Shown piece after piece: positions 22,701-46,700 of a stretch of 64,000 bases of DNA. The stretch is from assembly GCA_030248195.1 (NCBI GenBank), contig JASAND010005626.1, positions 59,434 through 123,433 of the forward strand. Reading direction: 5' to 3'. Position numbers and translations under genes: made by a program. Every line of letters begins with the position of its first letter. The stretch's first letter is position 1. The notes under the pieces were generated by a model, which saw only the letters and a list, made by a program, of their open reading frames with translations, was not told the origin of the DNA and searched no databases. The stretch is from Trissonchulus latispiculum (Eukaryota > Nematoda > Enoplea > Enoplida > Ironidae).

Positions 22701-25700
22701 TTCGGCGACAAGGGTTTGCGGGCCAGGGAAATCTCAGGTGTCACTCTTCCCTAAACTAATTTATGCTTATAATCCGGGGCAGCTTGCCGCAAGCTGCGCC
22801 TTCGAGCAGTAGGTACTGCGGGAGACACAGACTTCGGTACTTCGGCAACAGTCTTTTTTGTCTGCACGGGCTTCTTACTCTCCGGTTGTGGATTTAGGGG
22901 TGGAGCCCGGGTCGGGGCCTCAGGTTCGGAATGCTCAGAAGAAACTTTATCCTCATCGTGTTCGTGTACCGGCGCAGTAATGGCACGGGGCTCAACACAC
23001 GGTTTCTTGTTGTTAAACTGCACATTGAGTCGCTTAGCCCGACGGTTTCGGGTCGGGTAAACGGTAGCTACACACCCAAAAATTTTCTCAATTCGATACG
23101 GCCCAATATGTTTGTCCAAAAGTTTGTAAACTTGATTCCGCTTGGCTACGTTAGAGGCCTTGATCATGACCAAATCCCCGATTTGGTAATTTGGTTCAAC
23201 AGCTCGCTTATTGTACTGCTCATCCTGAGCACTCCGGGCAGCAGCAGCTTTCTCACGGGCCAGAGACCAAGCTAGTTGGATGGCTTCAGTAGCTTCTCTT
23301 ACGTAGTCAAATCCAGAATATTTACGATCGGTGGGAATCGCCACATTGGTTGCGCTGGGGAGGACAGGATCCCAGGCGTGCAATAAATAGTGTGGGGTTT
23401 CCCCCGTAGTTGCGTTAATAAAAGTGTTATACGCAAACTGACAGAAGGGGACCGACCATGTTGTCCCACTCCAGATGGTTTTCGGAAACGGTGGCAAGCA
23501 TGTCCAATAAAGTGCGGTGCCAACGCTCAATTTGACCATTAGCGGCCGGGTGATATCGTGTGGTTTCGAGCTTACGAGCTTCGAGGACCAGGGAACAAAT
23601 TTCCTTATTGAGTTCGGCCACAAATTCTTTTCACTGATCAGAGATAAGAGTCTTTGGGGAGCCGTACTGTAAAATAACGAATTCTAGAAAGGTTTGAGCT
23701 ACAGTGTACGCTTTCTTATTCTTAATAGGAATTGCTATGACATATTTGGAAAGCATCAATAAAGCTAAGGATATGTTTCATACCACTCGTAGAGACTTTG
23801 GAGATGTCCATTAGGTCGCAATGTACCCTTTCGAAAGGTTCGAGTGCAGGCGGGGGGTGTCGCAGGAGAGCTCGGGGATTGCGCGGGGGTCCTTTTCGCT
23901 TCTGGCAGCGCGGACAAGACTGTATCCAATTTTTCACGTCTGTACGCATACCGGGCCACCAAAAATGTTCCGAAAGCTTATAGGAGGTTTTATTCTGCCC
24001 CCCATGAGCGGCGTAACGACTGTCATGACATGCGGCTAGTGCCTCTTCACGTATTGCTTCAGGCACGGCCAGAACTTCCAAAGTAGTATTCCTGACTCTC
24101 TCGAGATGAACCAGTACACCCTCACGGAGATCGCAATTTTTGGCCAGGGCAGCTATGCGCACGGCTCGGTTGAAAGTACTGGGCAACTCATGGGTCTGTT
24201 TGTACTTGATCACTTCCTCCAGTAACAGATCCTCCTGCTTCAGGTCTTGCAATCTGCTCCATGACTTTGGGTTCAGAGAAACGTTGGAACTATCACGAAC
24301 GGCTCGTTCGAAAACTTCGCCGAAATGAGCAGAAGTGATGCTCTTCCGTTGTGGTCGGCCCGTTTCGGCCGAAATGAATTCCGGTCTCACATCTTCCTCC
24401 TGTACGAGTTCTGAGTCGGGTTCGCGGCTTGGACCAGCCCGTGGTACCGAGTCTCCCGAAAGAGCCTCTGGCTCACTATCCGTCTTGGTCGGATCTTCCC
24501 GTGGCGGTAACCGCGGTTGTTTCTTGGGAGTGGGCACACTTCGTTCAGAACCACTAGACTCGGATGCTTGTGAAATTTTGGAGACTTTGGTTCTTACTGC
24601 TGCAGCACTTTTCTGCGCTCGACTCTTAGAAACTTTCGGTGTAATAGTGTCGCAAGTGGGTCCCCTTTCCCGCTTGGCAACTACCGAATTTATGTGTGCT
24701 ACAAATTCCTCACTTTCCTCCTGATGTAGGGCGACTCCCTTGCGGTCGTTTTCTCCTTCATCCCCTTGGCATCCACAGGTGGACAAGGGGGGGAAAGGGG
24801 GGGGGGAAATTTCCCCCCCTCGGCGAAGTAGCCCACAAGGGGTCGCGAAATTGCTCCCACAAGGGGTAAGAAAATTGGCCACAAGGGTAAGAAATTTGCC
24901 CAAAAAGTAGGTTTTACGACTAAAATTTCCAAAAATTTTCCGGCTTCGCCGGAATTTTTCCCTTAAAATTACTATTTTTAGCTAAAAAAACGTCCAAAAA
25001 ACGTTTGTTAAAAATAGGCTAAAATAGCTTAAAAATCGCTTTCAAAAGTGCACCTAAGAAAAATCGCTCTCACAAGGGGTACCCAAATTTGCTTCCACAA
25101 GGGTCAGTGAAATTTGACCTCCCGTTCAGGTATGTTGGCATCCCTTAGCGACATCCGCAAACAAGGGGTTTCTTGATAGCCCGTCGGCGTTTCTCAACTG
25201 TGGGTTGTTCCTATGTTTGATTTCGAAATCATATTCGGAAAAGGTCATCTGCCAGCGGGCATGTCGATAATTTCGGGGCGGGTGCTTCATAAGCCACCTT
25301 AGGGTCAGTGAACAATGTGAATGGCGGTCCCCCGTAAAAATAGTGTCGAAAGTGTTCAATCCCGGATTTCATAGCCAAACACTCCTTGTCATGGGTGGAA
25401 TAATTTCGCTCGTATTTCTTCAGAGACCGGGCCGCGTAGGCCACCGGATGATATTTGCCATCATCTTGTTCCTGCGACAAGACAGCTCCTAAGCCTAAGT
25501 CGGAGGCATCTGTATGTAGGACAAATCCCTTGGCAAAGTCTGGGCGGGCGAGTACTGGGGCCTCAACTAGACTTTTCTTCAATAGATCGAAAGCTTGCTG
25601 ATGTGTGTTATTCCAAACGAATCGAACCCCTTTCTTTTTTAACGAATAGAGCGTTGCGGCCAGATGGGCGAACCCTTTGATAAATTTTGCGTAGTAGGCG

Positions 25701-28700
25701 CACATACCAAGGAAACTTTCAACATCCTTGATCTGTTTAGGTACAGCCAAGTCATGTATGGCCTGGATACGTTCCTTTAGCGGTTCTACCCCTTTGGCGG
25801 AAATAATATGCCCCAGATAAGTGACGGATTCCTTAAGAATGTGACACTTATCAGGGTTCATTTTCAGATCAGCGGCTCGCAAGCGGTCGAAAACCTCCTG
25901 CATAATTTCGAGGTGCTCATCGAATGTTTTCGAAAATATCAAAATGTCGTCAATGTAGATGATACATTTTTCCACTGTAGGTCCCCCAGAATTCGCTCCA
26001 TGCACCGTTGGAAATTACCCGGCGCACACTTGAGCCCAAAGGGCAAAACGTTATACTCAAATTGACCGTGAAACGTATTAAAACTCGCTTTTGCTTTGGA
26101 TTCTTCGTCTAATTCAATTTGGTTGAACCCTTTACTAAGACCAATAGTTGAGAAAAACTTTGCGCCCTTCAGTGTGGTCATGATGTCGTCAATTCGCGGT
26201 ATGGGGTAGACATCGGGGTCACTAATTTTATTAATCTTTCGAAAGTCTACGCACAGTCGAAGTTTGCCCCCAGGCTTGGGTACATAGATCATAGGCGAGC
26301 TCAAAGGGCTCGTAGAAGGCCGTATAAGCCCATATTTTAGCATCTCAGTTAACTCTTCAAGTATAGGCTGTCTGAGGTGCACCGGGAGTCGATAGGGGGT
26401 CGCCTAAATAGGCTTGGCTTACCCCGTGTTGATATGCGCTTGGAAAATGGTGCATTTGCCGATATCGAATGGATGTTGCGAAAAAACAGTTCAAATTTTC
26501 GTTTAGCAGGCCCAGAAATTGGCCACGTTCATGTTCAGACAGTTTCGCCTCATCAAATGAGATCTTTCTCATAGGTGGGGGCAAGTCGGAGAGCAGACAC
26601 GATTTTATGCCTCTGCAGGTCATGACTTGGTGCGAGCAGTTTCCGGTAGAGGCGGGTCCTCGGCCTCGAAAATAGCTTCCCAACTTAATAACCTTGCCCT
26701 CGGCGTTGCGGATCTTAGAGAAATGTGTCGCGTTTTTGCCCCTCCTTAATTCCCGTTGGGGAACAACGTTCCCGAGCGTGGTATTCTCATGAACGACGAG
26801 GTCTGTTCCGGTCTCATTTCTCATAATGACAGGAATGTACTGCTGTTCTAGGTTTACCATTGCTGGTAGGACCTGAAAGGTAGATTGCGATGTCTCGAAA
26901 TTTTGTGTGTCCGGCTCAAAGAGTCCCTCATAATTGAGTGGCTGTAAACTCTCTACTAGTCCAGGAACAGCGACTTCCGCATAGGCGGGCACGGTAACTT
27001 TTCGCATAGCAGATACTCGAAATGCAGTCTCAGTCAGAGGTGCGTGTTGAATAAGTTTGGCTTGCATGGGAGGGCGGCTCGGCTTATTCAGACTCAATTC
27101 GCCCTTTTGAAAATTTAGGTTGCATTCCCCACCGTGCTCGAGGATAAAATCAGTGCCAATTAAACAGTCCTCAGCTAGTCCCTTAGGGACCAAGAAGGTG
27201 TGCATTTTGCTGATGCCCGGAGTGTCGTAAAACCCGACAGGTACCCGTACGGCTCCCTTAAATTTAAGAGTTTGTCCGTTGACCCCTTCTGCGCGCGGAG
27301 CCTTTTCCAATGGCCTTACGGGCAGCTTCAAAGATCGTACCAGTCCTTCACTCATCAAACTGAGGTTTGCCCCTGTATCCACCAGGGCCTGAACAGGTTG
27401 TTCGCTGACATTTACCAAGATCATAGGCAATGGTCGGTGGGGGACGGTAAGAGCAACTTCTTCCCTATTCCTAATTGACTTATTCTGGTTGGCTATACCT
27501 ATGAGATGCAAATCAGGTCGAGGATTCGCGTAGGAGCCTGGAATGGTATTACTTTGAGACCTTGACCTTGAGTGGAGGGCCAGGTTACTGTGTGCTGTCC
27601 TAGATCCAGGGAGATTTCGCCAGGGTAAGTGATCATGTAATCCGAACCCATCACACAGTCAACGGTTAGCTGTTCCACTGCCACAAACTTCCACCTTCGG
27701 CTAGGGATCTGTCGCTCGGCTCCTTGGAAGAACACAGGTACTGTGACGCTACCCTTAATCTCACACCGACTTCCGTTGGCAGTACGAATGTATCTGGTCG
27801 GCTCTAGGGGTTCTAGAGGTAAACCTAATCGCTCGGCTAGTCTTCCAGACATAACAGAAACTAAAGCGCCTGTATCAAAGAGGGCTTGTACCGGCTGTCC
27901 CAGGATCATAAGGCTGATAAAGAGGGGAACGGTCCTGACCATCAGGACGGAATGCGCATTCACGGGCCTGCGGAAGTTACGAGAGGAGGCCCTGGCTGGA
28001 GTACTACTTCCCCGAGGATCCAGGTCCACCTGGGGTCCTTTACTAGCTCTCTTGATGGGACTAGTGGCCATGTCGGACTGTTCAGTACTAACCCGACCCT
28101 TAATCCGATCTTCCTCCGAATCTGTGTGTTCCCTAGTATCCTGGCGTGAAAATCGAACAATCCGGCAGTCTGAACCCTTTCTGTTTCCTTGATGCAAGTC
28201 GATCAAGGGTCAGGTCCTACTATCCTGACTGTCATCAGTCAACAACTGGGCACTAGCGTCCAGCTCAGCACTATAATCGGACATAGAGGAGGCTATTGAA
28301 GCATCTCTCATCAAAGGTCTGTAGGCAGGTGAAATCTGACAGCGGTTGGCGGCGGCCTTAGGAATCCTATCTAAGTGCTCGTTAACCGGCGGCTCCTTTG
28401 ATCGCAAGGGTATTGTCTCCATTTCCGGTGAGACGGATCCTAACTCTCGGTGGGCTCCTCATCATCGCTAAAGACCGCTTCGCTAGCTCTGCGAACATCT
28501 ACGGGGGCTGAAATCTTCGGCCTAGAAGGAGGTGAATCCCTTTTTGGTCGCCTGCGAATTCTATCCCTACACTTTCGTCCACAAGGCGTGACCCACCATA
28601 CAATTACTCACCCTATCAAAATGATAATGATAACAACCGTGAGGCCATGGTTTAACTGCAGCGGAATTAGGGGTAGGTTAACGTACTTTCGCATTTGGTT

Positions 28701-31700
28701 GTGAATTAAGTTTCGCGCTTACTCATTTTCGTATTCGGCGGTCGACAGTTCGGTAAAATGTAAAGGGATCCGGCCCAGCGGGGCCGGGACGACCATTTCC
28801 TTAAGTTCAGCCGTGGTAACGGTAGTGCGCGCTATGCCTAAAGTACTAGTGAGAATCGTGTTTCCGATGATCAAATGCAAATACCGGCCGTGCTCGAACC
28901 AGAGTGTGCCAGTGCTGGGAACTGCAACCCGTTCCCCTTCAGCAACGTGGTTCAAGGCGGGTGACCGAGCGACGACGACTTCCATATAATTTGTACGGAT
29001 CATTACTCCAGCTGGGGTAGTGCGATAGACTGTAGAATTATCCAAAACTTTAACCTGCACATATTCTGAGCAGCTGGCATATTCTTTTTTAAGCGTGTCG
29101 TCGGAAAACGAGATCAAAATTTGTAAACACCTAGCTTTGAGACTGGTCACGATGGCATTCGGAGGGCAAAACCAGAGTCCCGGAGCCGTTTTATATTCCG
29201 AGAAGTCAATCTCACGGATCTCCCCGGTATCAAATCGCTGTGCGTAATCAGGCATGGGAGCGAGAGCTGTAACCCCGCGTTCCCTAGAATTATATCCCAC
29301 ATTGTGCACTGCATTGAGGGGTCGGACCTCCTGTGACAGTGGTACCGGCATCTCCAACATGAAGCCGAATCGCAGAGTTTCGAAATCAATTTTGATTGGA
29401 TATACCTTTCCGAACTGATATATGAGGCTCGGCTCCTGACTTAGTAGGGAATTTCTCAAGGTCGGGTGATTGCGTATTATCTCTTTCAAGGTTTGTAAAT
29501 TCACTAAACTCGGTGTGACTTCAGAACGCAGTCCAGCGTGCATGACAGAATTCAATCCATCCCGTAGAGATGATGTGAAAATATGGGCGAGCAGTTGCAT
29601 ATAGATTTGCCTCATGTATGAGAAATTTGAACAACGCGCACGTATAATCAGAGTTGTCAGATCCTGCACCGTGTGATGCAGGAAAGCATAAATTTCCTCA
29701 TTTGCGTGAATAATTTTCTTGACCGAATCGGTAATTTTCAGTTGCTCTTCTCGAAGAGTATGGAGATCCTGCTTCTTCTTCTTCTTCTTCCTGTTCCTGG
29801 GCCAATCCTAGAAATCCAATGTGGCTGGGACGGCTAGAGCCGGCCCACATCCCGGAGAAAAGCCAGTACCCTTGGAGGACCCTTGGAAAGAATGTCAAGC
29901 CTTGGCCTGGTTCCGAGATGGCGTCGTCGGGGGTTTCTGTGGGAAGGGCAGTGCAGAAGAAGGTGGGCTAGGTCTTCCTCTGCATGTCCACAATCTGGAC
30001 AGGCAGGGGTCTGGGATATCCCCATGCGGAATTTCTGAGACGCAAGGAGCAAGGAATGTTCCTTGCAGCGTAGCTGGGAGAGAGTAACTCTTTCTCTCCG
30101 GTTCAAGTTCGCTTTCAGAGCTGGGTCGACGGGGACGTTCCCGTCGAAGATATTTTCACTGTCACATTGGGCCCAAAGTCTGCGGCACTCTTCCCTGACA
30201 AAGCGTTTGATGGCTGCCTTAGCAGATAGCATATCTATCCCGATGTTGCTTTGGTCCAGGGAGGCGGCTGATTTTGCAAGTTGATCTGCAGCTTCGTTTC
30301 CATGTATACCCACATGGCTGGGTACCCATTGCATTGTAATGTGGGTACCTCGAGCGGACACCGAGCAGAGATAGTCCCAGATTTCCTTTTCCAGGACTGT
30401 TACAGGTTTCAAGGGGCCGCTTTGGATTTTTTGGACCAGAGATTTTGAATCCGTGCATATTCTTATCTCCGCCGTGGTTTCAGGAGTGTTGTGCGAGACC
30501 CATTTCAGACAGCTGAGGAAGGCCGTTTCCTCGGCCCTTAGGCTGGAGCACAAGTGTCCCGCAGCCGTTTCTAGGTTTGCCAGGATGCTTCCTCTTCCAT
30601 CGGTTACGATGGCTCCAGTTCCACCGCTTCTGCCTTCGCCGGTGACGGCACCATCGGTCCAGATGGTGTAGTCGGCATCTGGCAGTCTGCTGAGGGCCTC
30701 ATAGGTGGCGGTCCGCAGTTCCGCGTCGGTTAGTTCATCTTTGCGTCTGTTCCCCAGAACTGGGACTGAGTCGAAGCAGGATAGGTTTTTAGGGTAGTCG
30801 CAGGGACAGACGGTTGGCAGGCATAGAGGTTCTCTTCTTTTGCCCGTCAGTTCCGTGGATTCCAGATGTCTTTTACCGCACTTCCTCCAAGAGTCTTGGG
30901 AGGGCAGGCGTTGTCGGATAGTGCGTTCGCAGATTTCAGCTCTGGGGTTGGCTTCCGGGAGCCGCCGGCCCTTCTCGACTCTAGTGTAACAACCCGGACT
31001 TTTGTCAATAATTGTTTTCAGTTTAATTAATTCTTATTAATTTTTATTATTTTGAGTACAGCCTAATGTCACGAGTTCAGCCTAGTTACGTATGTTTTGT
31101 CTAAAGCGTCGAGTGCAGAACAGCTTAAACTATCTTTCATAGTTTTGTTTAGTCTAGTAAAATCTCTGATAGGAGCAAGTTGCGTTTCTCTTCGAAGTCA
31201 GCTACATATTTTGGTGGCCAGTGTAAAAGTTTGCTTTAGATTTGCGTTAAGTTTGGAAATGCTTTGATTTTAGAGAGGCTTGATTTGATGAAATGGCCAT
31301 TCCGTTTTAATTATTTTTATTGTTCTGATGTTTTATTTGGTTAATTAATTAATGCCTATTGAGACACGTAGTATGACAGCAACATCCGAACAGCTTCAGG
31401 CTATGTTTGAAAGCTTCAAAACTGATATTTTGAGGCAAGCTAATGGTTTAACTGCAAATGTAACTGAACTAAATCAAGAGTCAGATGAACAGCAGCACCA
31501 TCGAATTGAGTCTCTGCTAGGAAAGTTCTCTAACGACATTGATGAAAATTTTTCCGAATTTTTGGAAAACTTTGAGTTTTATACGTCTGGATTCGGTTGG
31601 TCCGAATCGAAAAAGGCTCGCAAACTGCCTTTGTATTTAGATGGAGCTGCTAGAGACCAGTATCGTCTCCTCGACAGCGCAACTAAAGCTGACTTTGCCA

Positions 31701-34700
31701 GATTGAGGCAAGAACTGAAACGCGTTTTCATAAAACCGGAAAATAAGAGGTTTTCGACCCTGAAACTGAAAAGCAGAGTCAAATCAGAATCAGAGACTAT
31801 TGCTATTTACGCTAGAGATATCAGAAAGCTTTGTAAGGCAACTTTCTCAGATGAGCTTAGTGACCAAGCTAAGGAGCAACTTTTGCTGAACGCTCTTGAA
31901 AATGGCTTACCAGGAAAGTTCAAGAAAATTTTACTAGACAAGGAGCCTGCCACTTTCGATGAAGCTGTTCGGATACTGCAAAAGCGTGAAGCAGCTGACA
32001 CGTATTTGCAAAGAGTTTCTGTAGATTCAAACAATACTGTTGTATCGAAGCAGATGAGTTCACTTTTTTCTCAAATGGACGATCTTAAGCAACTAATTCG
32101 TGAACAACCTGCATCAGCTGCACAGCATTCTGTATCAACCTGTGCTGCAGTGTCGGAATCGGACCTGCAACAGCGGATCGAACGACTAGAGAGTAGAATC
32201 AATAAAACTTTACAGACAGGGTCTCGACGAAGTCGAGAAAATCAGAGTAACCGGAACGAATACTCTGCACCGAAACAGTCCAAATTCCGGTGGACAGCTA
32301 GTGGTCGACCTATATGCGCGAAGTGCAATCGTGTCGGCCACCGGCGTTTCGAGTGTTATTCTGCTACCGGTAATAATCAAAGAAGTAGTTTTCAAAACGG
32401 GAATCGACCTAGACAGACCACTGGTGATAGTAGTTTTCAAAACGGGAATCGACCTAGACAGACCAGTGGTGATAACAAAGGTCGTCAGAAAACTGCAGAG
32501 TTCACAAGGTCCAGAAGGACAAATGCTAATAAGCAAACAGTGTGTAGCACAGATACAGACTCTGACACCAAACCGTCTGACAGTGAAGAGGAACTGATAG
32601 CTTCTGCAGAAGGGACAAATCTGTCTCAAGAGTTGTCGCTACTGCAGGAGCAGATCAGAAATCTGAGTAGTCATGTATTTGCTGACACTATAGCTTTTGT
32701 TGGTGAGTGTGATACTCTCTCGCTGTCAGAGAAACAGAACTCGAACAACCTCAGTCTGTGTACTCCAATCACTCAAACAGTAAATAGTCACATGCTGGCA
32801 GTTGCAGACAAAATCTCTGCCACCCCTGAACGCCAGCTTACTGAACCAAAGGTTCACGACGGCTCCATGCTGACAAGTAATAACAAAAGATGGAAATGTC
32901 GGCACTCTGGCTCGTCAAAACTTTCAGGCACAGAGTACCAAAGAAACTTACCGAATACCGCACTGCCGTTATCCTCGTGCGGGAGCCAAATTTTTGCATG
33001 CATGCTTGTAGTATTGATTGCATTGTTCTGTACTGTACGGTCAGTTTCGACTAAACCAAAACTGAAATTGCTTGCTTGCTTTCTTTGTTTGCTTGTCCAA
33101 CCGGTGTATGCACGTGACTTTCAGTTGTGTGGGAGATCTCGGGGCAGCTACGCCTTGCATGTGCCAGTGGGCATTCAGTGTTCACTCCCAACAGTTGCTA
33201 AGCCGCTTTCAACTCAGGCTTTTCTGTATGTTACTAACTCTGAGCCCAGCACAGTCGAGGCCTTCAGTTGCTACAAAGTAGTTACCGAAGGGTGCACCTA
33301 TACAGGAGTGTTTAATACAGGAGGCTTAATCAAACCAGCCACCAAGACCCAGACATCCCTTACCCCCGCAGAATGTGTTTCAGTGCTTAACACAAAAAGA
33401 TTTGCAAATCAAGAGTTAAAGGCCGTTGCTGATGGTCTCTGGATGACAGAAAACCAGTTTCGACTAAGCTTCAAGTATTGCTGTTACACCTATTGTACTC
33501 AGGTGACCAACTACGTCCTTGAAAAAGGTTATGTCGCCACTATTGATTCAAGATCACTCTCAAGTGATCTTGGCTCTTTGGGTGGGTGTCACGCAAATAG
33601 CGGTTACTGCCACGGTACTGAAAACGTCATCGTATGGAATGCATCGAAGCTCGCGAGTTCCTGCAAATTCAAACTTCACGGAAAGTATGATATCGAGTTA
33701 TCAGGTAAGCATGTCTTGATAGACGAGGTCCAAGGTGCATTTCAGTTACATAAAACTATAAGTGATCGTTGCCTGCCGCACCACTGTTTCGATACCGCAC
33801 AAGGTACAATCATCTGCCTAGCTGGTGATTCTGCGAAAAACACTGAGAGCACAATGCCTGCTGGCAACGACGTTTATCCGCAGTTTGCAAATGCTAACGT
33901 GAGTGATCCAGTTAACGCGAAGTTAAACTATTTATATGACCTCGTTTCTAGACAGCATGCAGCTGACTTCCGTCGAGTTTGGTTAGCATTATGCAGCGTA
34001 ACCAGCCGCCAGCTTCAGATTATCTGGCAACTAGCACGTGTGGATGCGACACTTGCGGCACGGGTCATGCTCAATCGCAGCGACATCACAGCCCAGTTCG
34101 CAGGAGAAGCGCTGCTAGTTTGGCCATGTAATCCTATTACCCCAAGTAAAATTTATTGGGATTACAAGGTAGATGGCACTTGCTACGAGTATTTGCCTGT
34201 ATTGCATGAATCATCTCTGTTTTTTGTTGTACCTGGCAGCAATGACTTAACGCTAAGCTCGCTAACTATTAACTGTGCGCACCACCCTAAGGGAATCTAT
34301 AAGGGTCTCCATGGCTGGCAAAACTCGGACGGTGACACTGAAGTCGTGGAAATTCCTATCCATCTAGCATGGACAGCACAATGGCAAGTACCCAATTTCA
34401 GTACTCCAGCACTGTTTACTAACCTACTAACTCAGCTTCACACATCACCAGGATTGTACCCATCTCATGAAGCGAGGCTTCGGAAAATAGAACTCCAACT
34501 GGGCGGTTTGATTAACTATACCGCCGAATCTTCCCTTGACCCAAGGATCATAACTACGACCTTGAAAGGCCTAGGAGAGGGGGCCGGAGTCATACTGGAA
34601 CACGGCTCCCACGCCATCGGTCAATTAGTCGAGAACACTGGGGTTGGTCTCGGTAGTTTGTTAAGTGGGTTGGGTCATGGGGCTGGGTCCCTGCTGGGTG

Positions 34701-37700
34701 GTATGTTGAAAGGACCTATCCAATTACTAATTAATTTGGCTGTTCTGTTACTAATTCTTGCTGGCTTTGTTTGTTTAGCGTATCTTCTTTTCGTGCATAG
34801 AAATCGAGTCAAACATTTTTGCTCCAGGAAAAAGAAACCTGGTGACGATGAAGGCGACTCGAGTACACCCATAATTGGTATGAAGTCTCTTGCAGAATCG
34901 CAGCCACCTATTCCAAGGTTAGAACCAGAACTCCCAACGTCTGCCTTACCTGAGTCACAATTGTCCTACGACTTCCCACCGGAAGGATGTGGATGGAAAC
35001 GCCAGAGCAATGCTTCGATGTTTGTCAGCGAACCAGAAAATCCTCCGAGTAAAACACCTAGTCTGATTTCTGTCCTTGTCAATAGTAAGCCTGTTACCGC
35101 TTTGCTAGATACGGGATCAACTTTTACCCTCATCACTGAAAATCTTGTCTCGAGCGGGCATAAGCTAACACAGGCAGCAACAAGGGTGAAAGGTATAACT
35201 GGACACCATCTCGTATTATTGGGCACTATCCTCTCGTTGTTCCAAATTGGTCCACTGCAGGTGCACCATGAAGCATATGTCCTGAAACAATCACCATATG
35301 ACTGTATAATCGGTACTGACTTGATGAAGCACCTTGGACCGATAGTTATCGACTTTTCACCACCTGAGGCTGTCTACATTTGTGGACAAGCGGTGCCAAT
35401 TGTCAAATCAGATATCGCCGGAAAAAATGTCATGCGAAGCAGATTTTTGTCTCCATGTGTGCAACTTAAGGAGGATGTAGTGATTCCAGCTCGAACGGAA
35501 GTATGCGCTTGGATAGGGAAGGCTAGTCAAATATCGACTAAAGAGGAGCATCAATACCTCGATCCCAATCCGTTAGTAACCGAGAAGTATGGTTTATTGG
35601 TGGGAAGAGTGCTTTTACCGAAAAAGGAAACTTTACCAGTTCGCCTTCTGAACCCAACTAAGACTGCCGTCACCCTGCGCGCGGGTTCTGTCGTAGGTCA
35701 TTTAGAACCAGTGGATACCCTGGATCAGGTGAGCCAAGTTTCTAGCTGGTTGCCGAGCAAGATGTTCGACCTAGAAAGCGCATCTCTGTCCGGTGACGAG
35801 AAGGAGGAGCTGAGAAAATTGATTGATGAGTTCAGCGATATTTTTGCTAAGCATGACAGGGACACAGGCCGAACTCATCTGGTAAAACACACCATAAACA
35901 CTGGAGATTCGCTGCCAATTAAGCAGCGACCCTATCGAGTTCCTGTGTCACAGGTGGAGAAAGTTAATGAACATGTTAGGAACATGGCGGAGCGCAAAGT
36001 AGTTAGACCCAGTTCCTCGCCATGGGCTAGTCCAATAGTAATTGTTAAAAAGAAGGATGGCTCGGATCGATTTTGCGTCGACTACCGGAAACTCAATGCC
36101 CTGACAAAGAAGGACGTATATCCTTTGCCTCGTATTGATGAAATTCTGGATTCTCTTTCTAGGGCCAAACTTTTCAGTAGTTTAGACCTTATGAGTGGCT
36201 ATTGGCAGATTGAATTGGACGAAGCCTCTAAGGAAAAGACAGCTTTTGCAACTCCTCGTGGAGGGCTCTGGGAATTTAATGTGCTTCCATTTGGGTTGTG
36301 CAATGCCCCCGCCACTTTTCAACGGTTGATGGAGCACGTTTTGGCTGGATTGAACTGGCATAACTGCCTTGTCTACATTGATGACATAATCGTTTTCTCG
36401 TCGACGTTTTCACAACATTTAAAAGATCTTAAGCTTGTTTTTAACAGACTGCGCCAATCTAAGTTGAAGCTGAAACCGCAGAAATGTGAGTTCTGTAAAG
36501 CTGAAATACATTTCTTGGGCCATGTCGTTAGTGCTAATGGGGTCAAACCTGATCCGAACAAGACTACCGCTGTCTCTAACTTTACGACACCAAAAACTAT
36601 CAAACAACTGCAAAGTTTTCTGGGACTTTGTACTTACTATCGACGATTCGTAAAGGCCTTTGCTAACATTGCGAAACCTCTGTATTCTCTGCTGCAAAAA
36701 GATCAGTCTTTTGTCTGGACGGAAGGGTGTCAGTCAGCTTTCAATAAGCTCAAGGAAAGCCTTGTCAACGCACCAATCCTTGCTTACCCGGATTTCAACA
36801 AAGAATTCCTCCTTCACACTGATGCTAGCGGGACGGGATTGGGAGCGGTACTAAGCCAGCGTGACTCGAACGGCAAAGATCATCCGGTCGCGTTTGCTAG
36901 TAGAAGTCTGCGTCCTCCTGAAACCCGATACCCGGCTGTGCACAAAGAAGCATTGGCGGTAGTTTGGGCTTTGAACAATTTTCGCCACTATGTTTATGGT
37001 AGACCCACCGAAGTGGTCACAGACTGCGCTCCACTGAAGTGGCTCTTGAATGCTAACCCTAAAAGCAGTCGTTTAGCCAACTGGTCCTTAATGCTGCAGG
37101 ACTACGTCAAACACCTGAAAATAACTCATCGACCAGGTAAGAGCAACGGAAACGCGGATGCTTTGTCGCGTCTTTGCTTAGTTACAACCTCCACAGAATT
37201 CACCTGGCTGGATCTGCAACAGGAGCAGAAAAGCGATCCCTACTGCAAAGAAATTCTAGTCAAGATTGGTGACGACGATGCTGGCGTCAAGGATTATCAT
37301 ATTAAGTCAAACGGACTTCTCTACTACAGGCCACTGATCAGCAAACAAGCATCAAAGCGCTACTATCAAGGACCTGATCGTCTTGTCGTTCCGGAAAGCC
37401 TTCGATCGAGTGTCTTGCATGGACTCCATGATGACGTCTTTGCAGGCCATCTTGGCTTTGGTAGAGTTTACCAGACCCTTAAAGCGTACTATTATTGGCC
37501 TAATATGAAACAGGATGCGAAGGAATGGTGCCGGGCATGTGCCACTTGCGCCAGTAGGAAAGACCCTCCTAAGAAAATTCGCTGTAAGCTTCGACCTATG
37601 GTTGCTGAAGCACCTTTTTCTCGGCTGGCAGTTGATATATTAGGCCCACTCCCTACTTCATTGAAAGGAAATCGGTATGTGCTCGTGGCCATGGACGCTT

Positions 37701-40700
37701 TTTCCAAGTGGCCGGAAGTATTTGCGTTACCTGATCAGAAAGCTGAGACGATAGCTCAAATTTTGATTGAACACATCGTTTGTAGACACGGATGTTTCCG
37801 AGAACTCTTGTCTGACCAGGGTTCAAATTTTCAGAGCACATTGTTGAAAGACGTCTGCAAGATACTAGCCACAAGGAAGATTCGCACTACTGCTTACCAT
37901 CCAGAAGCAAACGGCATGGTTGAGCGCTTTAACCGCACGCTGCTTGATATGCTTTCTATGTATACTAACCAGATGCAAACTAACTGGGACGAGTACCTCC
38001 CTTTTGCGTGTTTCGCTTACAGGGTCTCCAAGCATGAAACATCAAAAGAATCGCCGTTTTTTGTTCTGCATGGACGCGACCCTCTGCTCCCAATAAGCAG
38101 CGTCCTGCATGCACAGCAGTCGGTTTACGACGAAACGGACGACTTTGTTCGTGACCTAGCAGTCCGTTTAAGGTGTGCTTGGGAAACTGTTAGAAAAACT
38201 ACTGCAGAGTCCCAAAATAGGAGAAAGGAGTTTTATGATCAAAAGGCTGAGGATCCTAACTTTTGTGTTGGAAATCGAGTTTATCTTTATACTCCTGTGA
38301 TTAAACGATCGGGCTCCAATAAAGATCCAAAGCTTTCCCTCACACCAAAACTTGCTAGGTTCTGGACGGGTCCTTGGAGGATCATTAGTCTGTCCGTCCC
38401 GGACGCTGAAATTCAAAGCATCGATGAACCGTCGAAACCATCACTGTTTGTTCATATTAATAGGCTCAAAATGTGTAACGATCTGCACACACCATACTTA
38501 AAAGCACCTGAGGTTCCCAACATTTATGCGTCTGTCAAACTAACTAAGGTACACCATGTGCAGCAATTGTATAGAAATGCATTTTATCAATAATCAAACT
38601 ATAAAAATGACGGGTGGAGTGTCTTTTTTCAATATAGCGGTTTATCCTCCAACGTGCGTTCCCTTTTTTAATTCTAACGTGCGCTTCTCTCCCCCTTCGC
38701 CATGTCTGCCTCCTTTTTTTTTCATTTTGGGCCCCCCTTTTACATCTCCTTTTTCCTCTCCTCCACCCAATTTTATGCAGTTTTATTGCAATCTGTGTAG
38801 ATATATTTCTTACTTGCTGCGTGTCTTTATTTGACAGACGCATTACTATGAGACCTCTACAGAAGAGTCTCATGATGATTCACCAGACTCAGCAGCTGTA
38901 CCTCTGCAACAACGTCATAACTATAACCTAAGATCTAGAAAGTCACAGAGTGAAGCTTCTAGTGCATTCCCTGTTTGTGTTATATTTCAGGCTTCTATTG
39001 CTATGTCACGTTATTCTCGTGCCAATCCGGATCGATATAGAGTGAAGTTATCGGATCATCGACATCATCCATCCAATGTCAGCAATCACTCTAGAGATCG
39101 CAGTGTTGAACGCACTCGACCGCCAATCAGATCAGTTGTTCATTCAGTTTCGGGTGGCTCGTCTTCCCGATTCGAAATCATCTGCGGCAGAAGCCACCCG
39201 CTGTCTCTCGTCAATGGGGAGAATCCAATTCGGATGGGAAGATGTATTTTCACTAGTTGCCTCCAGTTGTACGAGTACATACGCTGTATTCAACATGGTC
39301 AAAACGATGTTGCTCAGATTCTTCTTGATCCCAAGTATGCGGAAGATGCCAGTGCTATCCCTGGATTTCTTTCCGCGGAAACGAAAAGGTTGGATCCTTC
39401 TCTACCTAACTTTGTATATCAGCGTGAAAACCTGATTCGCTCTATTCTGGTCGAAAAGTTTTCTCAGCATCCACATCTCTTAGACATTCTCCGAGCCACT
39501 GGATCGAAAACGATTGTGTGCTGCCATCTCAAAGATCGATGTCTTGGAATCGGATGCAGTCCTTCCGAGGTTGATAACTTTCCGCTGGATAAATGGGGCG
39601 ACAATATTTATGGCCTGAGTCTCCAATCTTTTCGATCTAACCCCCACTGTTCTAGCGCGGTAGATCTGAATGAATGGATTTCTCGCCCTCTGTTCTCTTC
39701 AACGGATCCTAAGCGGACTTGCCTCCTGCTATCTGACTCTTTTTCCCGACACATTTCGGAGATTGAGTCTGGCTCTGTAGTCTCAGTCTCTGGGTTGCGC
39801 ATGCGATCAGTGCCCTTTGAAATTGAACATCGTAAAATCAGTGTATCCGATTATGATTTTGTTCTCCTTCATGTCGGTATCAACGATCGCGGAGGTACGG
39901 AAGACAGCTGGGATGACGATCTTGCCAAGCTAGCTAGCGCTCTAAAGTTAGCCCGTCAAGTATACTGGTGTTCACCCGTTCCCCAGCCGTCTGATGTTAG
40001 CAGCATTAGATTTGAGAACTGGCAAAAGCATGCCTGCCGTCAAGTCCATTTCCAGTACATCGATCTGGCTGAACAACGGCCAAACCCATTCCTCCATGGC
40101 AGCAGCATTGCTCGGGATTTATATCATAGCAGCCCTGGTCAAGTCCAACATCTCAACTTTGATGGCACAAAGGTTCTGTTTAACCAGTGGGCCAAGGCTA
40201 TCCCTAATTTAGCCAAATGTAAGCGATTCTATTCTGCTCTTTGGTATCGTCAGCGGGAAATTCCCGAATCGCCCGCCTGGAAGATCCTGTTCGCTGCGTC
40301 TGCCGATTCAGCTGTGACTGAGCCTCCGGAACAAGTGATCGTCACTGCTCCGAGCCAGATGATTCAGGGTCCAAGTTCATTGCGTCAAGATCCACCTGAT
40401 GCAACCTCGGTAGTTGGCAACACGCCTGGCCCTATCCTCTCCACCTTTGGCGCGTCTTTGCCACAACCTGTCCAGGTTCCGCAGCAGCCGATGCTCTCTA
40501 CTGCAATCGTGCCACGCCCATCGCTGTGGCCCTTGACATCTCCCTGGCCGCCGAGTCAACCGTCGACAGCTTTGTGCATCCCAGCGACGCTGCACTTGCC
40601 CGATGGTCAAGCCATTCCTATGGGTACGCTGTCATTCGGTTTTGGTAACATTTTCTGGCGAACTCACTAACTCGCAGGATGCTTCGTTTTTTACCCCCGG

Positions 40701-43700
40701 CGAATGTAACAACCCGGACTTTTGTCAATAATTGTTTTCAGTTTAATTAATTCTTATTAATTTTTATTATTTTGAGTACAGCCTAATGTCACGAGTTCAG
40801 CCTAGTTACGTATGTTTTGTCTAAAGCGTCGAGTGCAGAACAGCTTAAACTATCTTTCATAGTTTTGTTTAGTCTAGTAAAATCTCTGATAGGAGCAAGT
40901 TGCGTTTCTCTTCGAAGTCAGCTACACTAGTCATGACCAGTTCCCTGGCCCGAAGCGAGAATGGCATGAGGTTTGCCTCCAGGCGGGCATAGTCAGCGGG
41001 TGTGCCCGGTAAGCAGCCGGTAATCTTCCTTATGGCCTGATTCTGCACAGATTCTAGCTTCCCTGCTGTTGAGGCAGAAATAGATGGAAACCAAGCTGAG
41101 GCTGCATACTCCATCAAAGATCTGATGTAGGAGATAAAGATCATCCGCAGATCTTCTTTAGAAGGACCCCAGCTGCGCCCTGCCAGGGCGCTGAGGATGG
41201 CGATGCGCTTCTGCGCTCTGGATCTGACGTCTGCTACATGGGGGGCAAAACACAGTTTGCAATCAAACTTCACGCCCAGGAAGCATGGGTGAGGGTCGTA
41301 TGGTATTTCCTGGTCACTAATCCGGAGGGAGGGTTTGTGGGTGGACTGCCGATTATGGGTGGTGAAAATGCAGGTTTGGCATTTGCCCACATTTATTTTA
41401 AGGCCCCATTTGTCTGCCCAGGCTCCAACTTTGTCCAGTGCCAGCTGGAGTTTGGCCTCTGCAGTAGCAATAGTGGGATCTGATGACCAGAGGGCCAGGG
41501 ACCAGAGGACCAGAGGGCTGCCGCATACTCCCTCCGGGAGGTCGTCCAATATGCTGTTGATAAAGATGATGAATAGGAGTGGTGATAGGACTGATCCCTG
41601 AGGCACTCCCTGATGGAAAATCCTCCATTTGCTGAGTCGACCATTGTAGGAGACCTTTGCTTTCCTGTCTGTCAAGAAAGCTTTGATCCACTTTACACAG
41701 CAAATGGGCAGGTTCATCTTCAGTAGTTTGCTGATTAGAGCGTGTTTGTGGACTGTGTCAAACGCTCTAGAGAAATCAATCATGGCCAGTGCGGTTCTTT
41801 TCGCCGGCGGTTTCTTCTGGAATCCATCAGCAACATCCTGAGTTATTCTTGCGATTTGGCCTTCTGTTCCGCGAAGTTGTCGAAATCCGGCTTGGAAAGG
41901 GCTGAGCAAACCTTGGTTCTCCAGGGTGAACTGTAGCCTGTTCTTCACCATTGACTCCATGAGTTTAGCCAGGCAACTGGTGAGGCTAACAGGACGGTAG
42001 GAGGACACTTCGGTTGGGGGTTTTCCCTTCTTCGGTATTGGTATGATGGTAGCCCTTCGCCATGCTGTTGGTACTTGTTGCCGTTTCCAGGATTCATTGA
42101 TCAGGCGAAGAAGGTAGGCAGACGCTGACTCAGGCTGATGCTTTATCATTTCATTTGTGATTGCATCTGGGCCAGGGCTTTTTCCTGTCTTCAGGGACTT
42201 CAAGGCCAGGTTAAGTTCCATTCTCGTAAAGGGCCTGCAGAGGAGCGGTTGGTCAGCAGCTGCTCCTTTGCAGCCGCAGGTAGCCTTGAGGGACTGAGCG
42301 TTCTGGATTTTCAGTGCCTTCATTCGCGACTGGGTTTGGCATAGCTGACTCGGGCATATTCTTTGACGAATGCATTGGATTTGGCAGCGTCTGAGATCAC
42401 TTCCTTTCCATTATGCTGGAGAGCCGCCCCTTTGGTGGTGGGGCGTTTACCATCAATAGCATGAATCACTTTCCAAACTTTGCCAGGATCCGTTCGCGGG
42501 TCGAGTTCAGTCGCATATCTCTGCCAGGCTTCAGACTTCAGTTTGAGGATTGTTGATCTAGCTTCAGCCTTGGCCTGGACCCAGGCACTCCGCTGAGAAG
42601 GATCCGCTTGTGCTGCACGGTATGCCTCCTTGCACTTCTTTACCGCAGCAGCTGCTTCCGGTGACCACCACGGCTTGGGCTTCCTTAGTCGCCCTCTGGG
42701 GATACTGCGCCTGGCAGCTTTCAAGATGGCTTCCTGTAGGATGGTGGTAGCCCTGTAGACTCCTATATGGGCCGGGTTCCGGCAGTGCTAGATATAGTCA
42801 TGCAGGAGCTTCTGGAATTTTGGCCAGTTCGCCCTTCTGAATGCCCACCGGGGGGCTTTGCGGGGCCGGCTTTCTGAATGATCCAAGGCGCTGTAGCTGA
42901 TTATGATTGGTAGATGGTCGGACAGAGTAGAGTCTAGCAGTTCCCAGCTAAATCTACTGGCTTTGCTAGAGTGACAGAGGGTCAGGTCAGGAGCAGTTCC
43001 TTGTTCCTGTGCAGTGACAGGGGGCCTGGTCAGCTTTCCGTCGTTTAGTATGACCATGTCGCTGAGAAGGGACCAATTCGCAACTGCATCGCCCAGGTCA
43101 TCCCCAGGCCGTTCTGGTTCCCACAGATCTGAGTGGCAGTTCAGATCCCCACCGATGAGGACATTCGGGGCTGATGGTAGGGCAGCAGGAGACCCTGCTC
43201 AACTGCCTCGACCTTCCCGTCCAACTTGCCCATGTGATACGTGTTAACGAGACTGCTAGCTATCCCACCTATTCCCAAAGCACCGGCTAGTAAAAACTCG
43301 ATAAAACGTTTTTGCCGTTTCGGGGCTTCGCTCGTCATCGGATAAGAGGAACAGACCCCCGGGGTAGATCTACACAAGCTGGCTAGCAACTTTGAATAAA
43401 AATGAGTATTCAAAACCCCAGAATAGAGCTTTCTGTATTCGGCTTTTATCTGTTCAATTTCTTTGTCCAAAAAGTTATGCTGCGGGCAACTTTGGTTGAT
43501 CATTCTAACGCAGTATTGGTCGTCTTTCGATTTCCCCGTGGTCAAGTCAATGCAATCCTCCTCATTTGCCCACTCAGGCGGCTTCCAATTTGGAGTGATG
43601 GGGGTACGGCTATTTGCACTATCAGTGCCAAATATTCAGTTTTTTTGGGAGATGACCCCAATACCCGCAGGACTTAACACGGCTCCCCACCTAGGCAAAA

Positions 43701-46700
43701 CAACAGTTCCAATTTTGGCAATCTCATCGGCTAAAAAATGAGAGGAGGACATGTCGGAGGCGGTTTGCGCGTGTGCGCAGGCGACGAAAAAAGTCATGAT
43801 CATCCAAAAAAGTGGTACTGCAAATTTTCGAATAGCCCCCAGCCCCACATACACAGACAAGAACGGCAAGAACACAATAGCTAACACATTGCTAATCTCC
43901 CTCTCAGGAGAGCATTCATCTCTCTCATTCACACGATCTATTAGCTCATCGGTTCGGATTTCGCACTGAACTGCTGTGGTGGAAACGTAGGTTTTCTGAG
44001 CATTCGTTCCTATAGCGCGTTTTAGTCGGACATCTTCTTGCCGACGTGCCTGTCGAGCAGACACAGGAATAAAAAGTTCTTCCTCCGTAGAAGTTATAGA
44101 ACTCAAGCTCAGTGAACGTTCAGGGGAGATATTTCTCGCTTTATAGATGGTACTCGGGCAGGTACACACCAGCGGCTGTTTACACATCATCACTCTATGC
44201 TCGAAGTGAGGCGAAACGAGGCAGCGCTTAGCATGCATTATACAGTTACGGGACGCGTGTCTCACGGACCGCACAGAGTATTGATCTGAGTAATCTGATT
44301 CTGAATTGGGTCTACAGCGATTCTGTCGGTTTTCTTGCGACCGGTCGGAATGTCGGTCGCTGCCACTGGAATCCGAGTTACCAGACCTCCGGGAAAGTCG
44401 ACGGGTACCCTCCCAACTATGGCCACCTCCTTGTAATTTTGAGCGTGTCACTGCAAACTTTGGGCCGTGCTCACGTTTCATTTCGGGAGGCATCCGGTCT
44501 CTGGGATCTCGCCGATCCCGGAATCTCGCCCCAGGAATCTTGATTAGCCCGATAATTTGACGGACGTGGATTTTCTCGACGCTCAGAGTAATTTCCTCTG
44601 TTGTCACGCCAAATTCCGGTGTCGTTTCAATACGAAAAGTTCCTATCATTGCCGTTTCGTTGGGAGTAATTTCCGTTTCGCCCAAAATTTCGTGTATCTC
44701 GGTTTCCACCCGGATTCCGATTATAGTTGCGATCAGAATTTTGATTTCCTCCCTTATACGCTCCTCCGCCAGGCTGGCGGCATTCTCACGAACATGTCCC
44801 GGCTTATTGCAATTGAAACAGGTGGTGCCAGGCGGTAACTCTCGGCCACGGTCACTACGGCCAGAACCATTCAATTTTTTGGCCGTTTCGGCCTCCAATT
44901 TTTCAAAACGGATTTTCAAACCCTTCATAGCTTTTTCGGCCTCTGCAATTTCAACGGGAGCCTTTTTCTCGCTCATAAAATTTGTTTCAAGAAAAGAGGG
45001 ATAGGCCTCGCCTGGATACTCTCCCTCGGCCTGCAATTCCTTTTCAACCGCCCGTTCTAAAGTTTTGCAACCAGGCGGCACCCGTACTTTCAAATCGTTA
45101 CGCAACCCAAATAAGAATAGTCGTAATTTCAAAAGTTCTAGCTGTTGATCACTGAACCCATCTGTTTCCTTGAAGCTCAACCGGGCATAACGGTTTAAAC
45201 GCATCAAATAGTCGGTAACAGTTTCTCCCTTCTCTTGTTTAACTTGAAACATCAAAGACGAAGCATGCAATGCAGTGTGCGGAGGGGTCATAACCTTTTT
45301 AGCAGCAGCTACGAACTCATCCCAGGTACCCAGGCAAGCTTTTGGCACTGAGCGAAATAATTCTAGGGCCCTCCCACGTAAAGGACTTGAAAAGGTTAAA
45401 ATGGTCTGCCCCTCATCGAAACTCATAACCAGGCAGAACCGCTCATAGTGTCCGACGTGCTCGTCGAAAGACTCTGATGGGTGGGCGTGGTAAACAGGCA
45501 CCGAACTGTATGCTGCAGCCACTCCCTGGGCTCGTATAGCCGAATGAAATTCAGTCAAAGTTTCAGTCAATTTATTGAGCGCTTGATTTTCCGCGCTTTC
45601 ACTTTTAGTACTTTCCGCTTCAGAATTGGCGTTTTCGGGAACTTCAGGTTCCTCTGAGTCAGACATCTTTTTAGGCTTTACTAACTGTGAGCTTCAAAAA
45701 CTTTGTTATGCTATTTTGAACAATGTTTGCTAAGGTGCAGGTTTGCAAACTTCAAAGTTTAAACAGTTTTCCAAAGTTTAGTTTCACTCACACGCCTATC
45801 ATAGCTATGTAGGTAATCCTAACAGTCACACTCACAATCATACGCTGAAATAAAACAAGCACTTTAAAGTACGCACTGTAGTAAAGGAAATTAATTCAAT
45901 AATTGATAATTAGGTAAAATTAAATAAAGTTCAATTATTCTTGTAAACCAGGGGGAAACGAAGTTCAGATCAAAATCAAATCTGTAAACTGTGAGTTCTT
46001 TTAAAGGAAAATTGACGGAGCCACTGTTTATATTCAACCAAACAACAAATTTGTCTTGCGAGTAGTTTTGAATAATATCAGTAAGTTAACTCACGTCCTA
46101 TAATTTTCCTCTCAGGCAGGCTCCACATGTAAAGAAACGGATTTCCGGTTAGGCAATGTTTTTAGCCAATTTAGGTACTGAGAGGTCCCTACCACGTCTC
46201 AAGTCTAAAACTTTCTTCTCTCAGCCCTTTCTGGTCGTACAAGTTTGGGGGTCGGGCAAACTTGTTTCAATAACACAACAATCTGAGCTCTGGTTAAATG
46301 GCTCAGAAGTCAAGTCAATCCATCTTAGAATTACCTAATAATTAGTGGACCGCTCAATGGAACTTTGAGGTCAACTAATTATACTACCTAAACAAGGCTT
46401 CCGTAACTAACACTCTGGTCCACCTTGTTCTCAAATCAAAGCCCGAAACTAATACAAACAGGAGTCGCTTGATGATAGGATTCAGAATCACAATTTACTA
46501 TGGTTAGTCTGCTTCATGTAGCACAAATCCGATCAGAGTAACAGGGTATAATTCACAAGACAAACTGTATACAATTTTTGATAATGGCGACTTTCAATAG
46601 TTTTTTTACAGACATTAAAGAGAGAGCTCTGCAACTATTTCACTGATACAAACCTTGTCCAAAACCCGAGATTTACCTTGATCAGACCGTAATCCAAATT

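Follow-up and report, generated by a model that had tools for sequence, protein, structure and literature searches.

A young Ty3/gypsy element of the nematode Trissonchulus latispiculum with a gB-like envelope glycoprotein between Gag and Pol

In retroviruses, and in the errantiviruses (insect gypsy, ZAM), which are enveloped Ty3/gypsy elements, the env gene is located after pol. The locus described here raises the question of how an envelope could be produced from the middle of Gag-Pol. It lies in a stretch of 64,000 nucleotides from the nematode Trissonchulus latispiculum (assembly GCA_030248195.1, contig JASAND010005626.1, positions 59,434 to 123,433 of the forward strand), called the window below, all positions being counted from its first letter. 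The window contains a young, structurally whole Ty3/gypsy (Metaviridae) long terminal repeat (LTR) element with a class III fusion glycoprotein inside Gag-Pol. A single open reading frame (ORF) encodes successively Gag, Env, protease (PR), reverse transcriptase (RT), RNase H (RH) and integrase (IN). The errantivirus layout is not found, env being placed before PR and the ORF behind integrase encoding a NADAR-SGNH protein.

Structure of the element and identity of its envelope

The element occupies positions 30985-40926 of the forward strand (about 9.9 kb) within one contig. Its two LTRs are identical, with TG..CA ends, and are flanked on both sides by the 4-bp duplication CTAG; the insertion is therefore recent and structurally whole, and the youth proposed in the initial annotation, made from the letters of the window alone, is borne out. 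LTRs of this form, a target duplication within the range of 4-6 bp and the order PR-RT-RNase H-integrase are those of the Metaviridae. The RT is closest to gypsy-type Pol: among the best 120 of 7744 matches, the named entries include Pol proteins of transposons 17.6, 297 and 412, and K02A2.6-like. The frame of 2413 codons is not the product of chance. The features are the following.

30981-30984, no strand: left target site duplication CTAG, read directly from the sequence
30985-31206, forward: 5' LTR, 222 bp, TG..CA ends, 100% identical to 40705-40926
31352-38593, forward: single ORF gag-env-PR-RT-RH-IN, 2413 codons, ATG to TAA (ORF list, piecewise translation)
31628-31897, forward: Gag capsid region, Retrotrans_gag, weak (Pfam PF03732, E 0.0017, below cut-off; gag homologues 5' of env in relatives)
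32315-32356, forward: CCHC zinc knuckle, pattern C..C....H....C
32990-33034, forward: extra upstream hydrophobic segment (hydropathy, sequence)
33068-33112, forward: signal-like hydrophobic segment with a basic N-flank, directly before the ectodomain, position conserved (hydropathy, alignment)
33110-34732, forward: envelope ectodomain, class III (gB/chuvirus-like), with a C-terminal Gly-rich stretch and a KGPIQ motif
34733-34795, forward: transmembrane (TM) segment, approximate bounds (hydropathy; conserved in the envelope alignment)
34796-34840, forward: basic cytoplasmic tail (sequence)
35063-35338, forward: aspartic protease, DTG (Pfam PF00077/PF13650)
36044-36526, forward: reverse transcriptase (Pfam PF00078, E 7.5e-39)
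36716-37105, forward: RNase H (Pfam PF17919, PF17917)
37388-37903, forward: integrase, H2C2 zinc domain and rve core (Pfam PF17921, PF00665)
39003-40670, forward: 3' ORF, 555 aa, NADAR (39213-39638), then SGNH/GDSL hydrolase-like (about 39780-40097) (Pfam)
40705-40926, forward: 3' LTR, 222 bp (identity with the 5' LTR)
40927-40930, no strand: right target site duplication CTAG, read directly from the sequence

Several parts of this plan had already been recognised. The zinc knuckle proposed in the initial annotation shows a clear CCHC pattern, though it is weak in Pfam (zf-CCHC). The cysteine-rich region open to N-glycosylation corresponds to a stretch of 577 aa with 20 Cys and 5 sequons, and the membrane anchor with its basic tail is present at the expected place, protease, RT, RNase H and integrase coming only after it.

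On the basis of profiles and of a predicted fold, the middle region is a class III (gB-like) viral envelope glycoprotein. It matches the model PF24664 with 53.4 bits (cut-off 27), the gB model PF00606 giving only 16.2 bits, under its cut-off of 43. In a profile search of the PDB, gB was found at E 4e-7; the few rows that were not gB stood at E 0.3-1. A viral fusion glycoprotein model is matched by all of the 20 aligned family members, and 16 Cys columns of the ectodomain are invariant across these 20 families. Fold comparison was performed with a second AlphaFold model, built from 7 sequences and used cautiously; herpesvirus gB accounts for 50/50 among the matches listed. A first model, built from 4 sequences, had been discarded (pLDDT 32). 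The assignment to a non-envelope family, which would have spoken against the initial annotation, is thus not what the fold search returned. Nothing was found in IMG/VR (single protein and profile), in the GTDB contigs or in a protein database queried at E<=1e-5 with a single env region.

Conservation of the gene order and selection on the frame

The 733.8-Mb assembly was searched for further copies. Of 674 first-look candidates, 70 were scored, and 70/70 matched; the frames of 40 of these 70 env loci, which fall into 27 families at 70% env identity, were checked in fetched stretches. The open frame of env includes gag in 30/40 loci, PR/RT in 25/40 and both in 18/40, and 15 of the 27 families have at least one copy in which all three parts share a frame. 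Gag and env are joined in 22/27 families and env and pol in 19/27, one family (L025) showing neither junction. The remaining loci are interrupted by stops or frameshifts, or are cut by the end of the stretch. An RT match lies within 3 kb downstream of 36 of the 70 env matches listed, and no env match was found within 6 kb downstream of RT (0/73 among the RT matches listed). Over 3137 bases of env-pol, a copy on contig C18474 (L002) shares 99.9% identity with the window element; it has lost most of gag and the beginning of env.

Among the matches listed, 37 RT matches lie on contigs that hold none of the 70 env matches. The region upstream of the protease was inspected in 12 of these 37 loci, and in 8 of the 12 it encodes a divergent form of this envelope, with BLAST identities of 20-26% and profile E-values of 1e-29 to 1e-90. 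L043 shows the end of an envelope, and only gag was seen in L042. In two related gypsy elements, L046 and L052 (contigs C11856 and C14907), gag leads directly into the protease; env-less relatives therefore exist. With these two exceptions among the 12 further loci, the relatives hold the middle region in the same place; its absence would have argued against the initial annotation.

The arrangement extends to other assemblies. Gag is fused to env in protein P0006, and env to protease and RT in P0008, while P0093, P0100 and P0103 each present the complete series gag-env-PR-RT-RH-IN in 2293-2327 aa. P0008, which looks like an animal-type protein, is filed under a Desulfobacteraceae metagenome-assembled genome, which is likely contamination. 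In an RT tree of 145 retained sequences (L001-L003, short matches and those with stops being omitted), 36 sequences cluster at a support of 0.84; 32 of them are labelled as env carriers, with only gag seen in one of these (L054). The backbone is weak, four env-less proteins fall inside the cluster and one env carrier (L062) outside, so no claim is made on one capture versus several.

Selection was estimated from 24 pairs, of which 23 gave values. In the ten close pairs with a usable env dN/dS, it ranges from 0.06 to 0.22 in nine and reaches 0.39 in one (L029-L035); in 13 distant pairs, in which silent sites are saturated, env pN/pS is 0.21-0.35. PR-RT pN/pS is 0.04-0.65 where readable. Judging from these substitutions, the element is under purifying selection as a coding unit. 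The distances of env and PR-RT correlate over 21 families (Mantel r 0.77, 0/5000 permutations as high), and env and pol have therefore travelled together. The substitution counts indicate that both linkers, which in the window copy span 32357-33067 (gag-env) and 34841-35062 (env-PR), evolve fast: the former shows 26 silent and 55 replacement codons, the latter 30 and 31, in pairs that are partly non-independent. Linkers were measurable only with the flanking motif in the frame of env (gag-env in 32 and env-PR in 29 of 38 loci), and a stop was found in one of these 61 (L022, gag-env). Linker indels were dropped as a proof of translation, the lengths differing by multiples of three by construction since they were measured in the frame of env.

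The claim that gag, envelope and pol share one frame of 2413 codons is therefore upheld by the ORF itself, the Pfam scan, the frame kept in relatives and a dN/dS well below 1. Conserved order, profile matches, selection and the gB fold together rule out a chance insertion or a non-envelope middle region.

How the polyprotein may be made

That many related families have kept this odd order points to threading of the entire protein through a membrane during its synthesis. The element would most likely follow the model of the flavivirus and alphavirus structural polyproteins and work by membrane threading of a single polyprotein, a reading by analogy to which a probability of about 0.6 is given. 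The likeness to these viruses concerns the anatomy only: a cytosolic capsid protein is followed, in one frame, by an internal signal and a TM segment. Gag would be synthesised in the cytosol, after which the internal signal segment would direct the ribosome to the endoplasmic reticulum (ER), where the Cys-rich ectodomain would be translocated and glycosylated. The TM segment would halt the transfer, leaving PR-RT-RH-IN to be made on the cytosolic side. Signal peptidase may split Gag from Env, the signal segment remaining as the membrane anchor of Gag, and Pol may be cut from the Env tail by the element's own protease. No Gag-Pol frameshift would then be needed to bring Gag and Pol together on one membrane. 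From the sequence we infer one-piece translation, topology, cleavages, particle budding and infectivity alike, and one-piece membrane-threaded translation would be the most economical reading of it.

A hydrophobic core stands directly before the ectodomain in 27/27 families. The initial annotation had described signal-like hydrophobic segments in the plural at this place; the window copy does have two, but the second, upstream core is peculiar to the window family, the 26 others having one. This count depends on the threshold, L038 also showing two at a looser setting. Separation without a stop by a 2A-type (NPGP) motif was not found in any of 40 env pieces.

Several observations weigh against a membrane-threaded polyprotein. 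The two hydrophobic segments of the window copy complicate its topology. The signal-peptidase motif is present in 27/27 families against 23.9 expected from shuffles, and is therefore non-discriminating (the anchor of L013 was misplaced in this count). The second AlphaFold model is modest (mean pLDDT 53, pTM 0.36). No fetched copy is open across all three parts in 12/27 families, and stops follow the TM segment in 5 of the 9 loci whose env-PR linker could not be measured; linker lengths in multiples of three carry no evidential weight. A retroelement that made Gag, Env and Pol in equal amounts from a single RNA would be out of the ordinary. Finally, splice-like sites score somewhat higher in the gag-env linker (mean percentile 0.69 for donors and 0.72 for acceptors; 0.66 and 0.71 in a second run, versus 0.41-0.63 in other coding stretches), and in the window copy a donor-like site at 33040 and an acceptor-like site at 34828, 1788 bases apart and in frame, flank the ectodomain and the TM segment.

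These last sites would fit a separation of the products by splicing. The removal of an in-frame, env-containing intron would give a cytosolic Gag-Pol, a splice from the leader to the linker would give Env with a Pol tail, and the continuous frame would keep the unspliced RNA harmless or translatable. Among LTR elements, splicing has a precedent in Cer1, according to PMC10309623. The env-PR linker, however, has sites near chance (acceptor-like 0.56, donor-like 0.47, standard error 0.06), and it contains no stop in the 29 measurable of 38 loci. A spliced Env would therefore still carry Pol; where env is not followed by a stop, an RNA could yield Env without Pol only through splicing. The deletion junction of L002 shows a 4-base microhomology and lacks AG at its intron-like end, by which this copy was ruled out as a spliced retrocopy. 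Splicing is regarded as unlikely, though it is the strongest of the alternatives.

Initiation at an internal Met near the signal segment could produce Env-Pol without Gag. The window copy has a Met inside its extra hydrophobic segment, and 10/27 families (11 with the anchor of L013 corrected by eye) have one in the zone before the ectodomain core; in 17/27 (16 after this correction) there is none, so a conserved separate start is unlikely, and Pol would still be attached to Env. This explanation is given very little credit.

A further alternative concerns the function of the glycoprotein and not its synthesis. Once captured, it may now serve in a role other than entry, such as the anchoring of Gag and Pol to membranes or transfer from cell to cell, the elements being non-infectious. 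They are indeed multicopy in one genome, and infectious particles were neither seen nor searched for here. The conserved Cys, the constraint on the ectodomain and the presence in other assemblies fit a working fusogen better, without proving entry, and a non-entry role appears improbable.

The 3' ORF, the neighbouring elements and known systems

The ORF between pol and the 3' LTR was missing from the initial annotation. Its product matches NADAR (PF08719, E 7.1e-12, above cut-off) and, below cut-off, an SGNH/GDSL-like domain (PF13472, E 0.0011). It contains DSFS, GIND and HLNFDG, which we take to be the SGNH blocks. Across the genome, 80 matches to the NADAR-SGNH protein were found. Among the 70 env matches listed, 25 have such a match within 9 kb downstream, mostly 3.8-4.8 kb away, and none has one within 6 kb upstream. 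At C14947, C17734 and C19115 the open-frame lengths recorded for the env, RT and NADAR matches are equal (3183, 2826 and 2763 codons, respectively), which implies that the three share one frame. As a guess, the targets of the NADAR-SGNH protein might be marks or lipids of host origin, which it would modify or hydrolyse at assembly or entry. Published work describes a NADAR domain in Pol of Ectocarpus gypsy elements (PMC12477816) and a GDSL/SGNH ORF3 in the Vesta elements of bdelloid rotifers (PMC5408684). Each of these, as described there, has one half of the 3' ORF; the window element joins both in one ORF behind an env-in-middle polyprotein.

The surroundings of the element were also annotated. 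It is apparently nested in a LINE-type element of the reverse strand (about 29837-31033 and 40872-42410), with RT on one side and RNase H and zf-RVT on the other. The LINE is in turn apparently nested in an older, broken gypsy element, also of the reverse strand (21812-27658 and 43639-45693), with gag, protease, RT/RNase H, an integrase zinc domain and an OTU cysteine protease-like ORF, OTU scoring just under cut-off. Between the end of the LINE and the protease of this older element, an open stretch of 362 aa (28722-29807, reverse strand) has no Pfam match, and comparison with two envelope profiles gave no match; judged by its position, it may be another envelope-like region. Elsewhere in the assembly, L065 and L066 (C17523) are mitochondrial fragments that resemble COX1 and are interrupted by stops, perhaps as a nuclear copy. 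They read with the invertebrate mitochondrial code, and AAA occupies positions at which a lysine is expected, as in PTGIK, an observation that speaks against a flatworm.

The env-in-middle arrangement has a precedent in the planarian Burro elements, in which env lies in frame between gag and pol, called "the first case" (PMC6431247); in the open-licence literature this is the only paper found to describe it. Burro (GYPSM1) and the window element are both gypsy-type LTR elements with env in a single polyprotein and extra host-like domains. Burro, however, exceeds 30 kb with an ORF of 4873-5140 aa, against 9.9 kb and 2413 aa here, and it carries BCL2, MATH/TRAF and dUTPase-like domains, none of which appears in the Pfam scan of the window element at E<=1. 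Its env has homology to gypsy Env and mononegavirus fusion proteins, whereas that of the window element is gB/chuvirus-like. The window element further differs from Burro, as described, in its NADAR-SGNH 3' ORF, in the many families that one genome contains and in having relatives in other assemblies.

The fusogen itself has parallels elsewhere. Dingle, of the annelid Dimorphilus, is a Ty3/gypsy element with an envelope resembling herpesvirus gB (PMC7854359); it shares this with the window element and differs in the position of env, downstream of integrase. Anakin carries a chuvirus glycoprotein and Cer7 a herpesvirus-derived env (PMC7642597); both are LTR elements with a glycoprotein of this broad kind, but belong to BEL/Pao and not to gypsy. 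In Roo, Tas and Cer7, env is downstream of the polyprotein (PMC7642597). In arthropods no clear capture of such glycoproteins by Gypsy is reported (PMC10084718), and the errantivirus env is of baculovirus type (PMC12440569). No paper combining a gB-like env with the middle position was found in the open-licence literature. What is unexpected, beyond the precedent of Burro, is the depth and spread of the arrangement, the class of the fusogen and the possible one-piece fusion with NADAR-SGNH. Relative to Burro, the arrangement is now seen with another class of fusogen, in compact elements and in many lineages, and together with a recurrent NADAR/esterase-like accessory ORF.

It is possible, and is proposed here tentatively at slightly less than even odds, that these elements represent a large and old group of invertebrate metavirids in which Gag, a gB-like fusogen and Pol are one ER-threaded protein, Gag being anchored by its C-terminal signal segment and Pol forming the cytoplasmic tail of Env. 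Neither a frameshift nor a separate env mRNA would be required, and in some families NADAR-SGNH would be added, up to 3183 codons. To our knowledge, Env is made separately from Gag and Pol in every enveloped retrovirus, through splicing or a promoter of its own. If the proposal is true, Gag, the membrane and the genome enzymes would be gathered without frameshifting or a separate env mRNA, and testable questions would be raised on the Gag-to-Pol ratio, the site of assembly and the timing of the protease. The membrane-threaded polyprotein, a strategy of positive-strand RNA viruses, would then also be open to reverse-transcribing elements.

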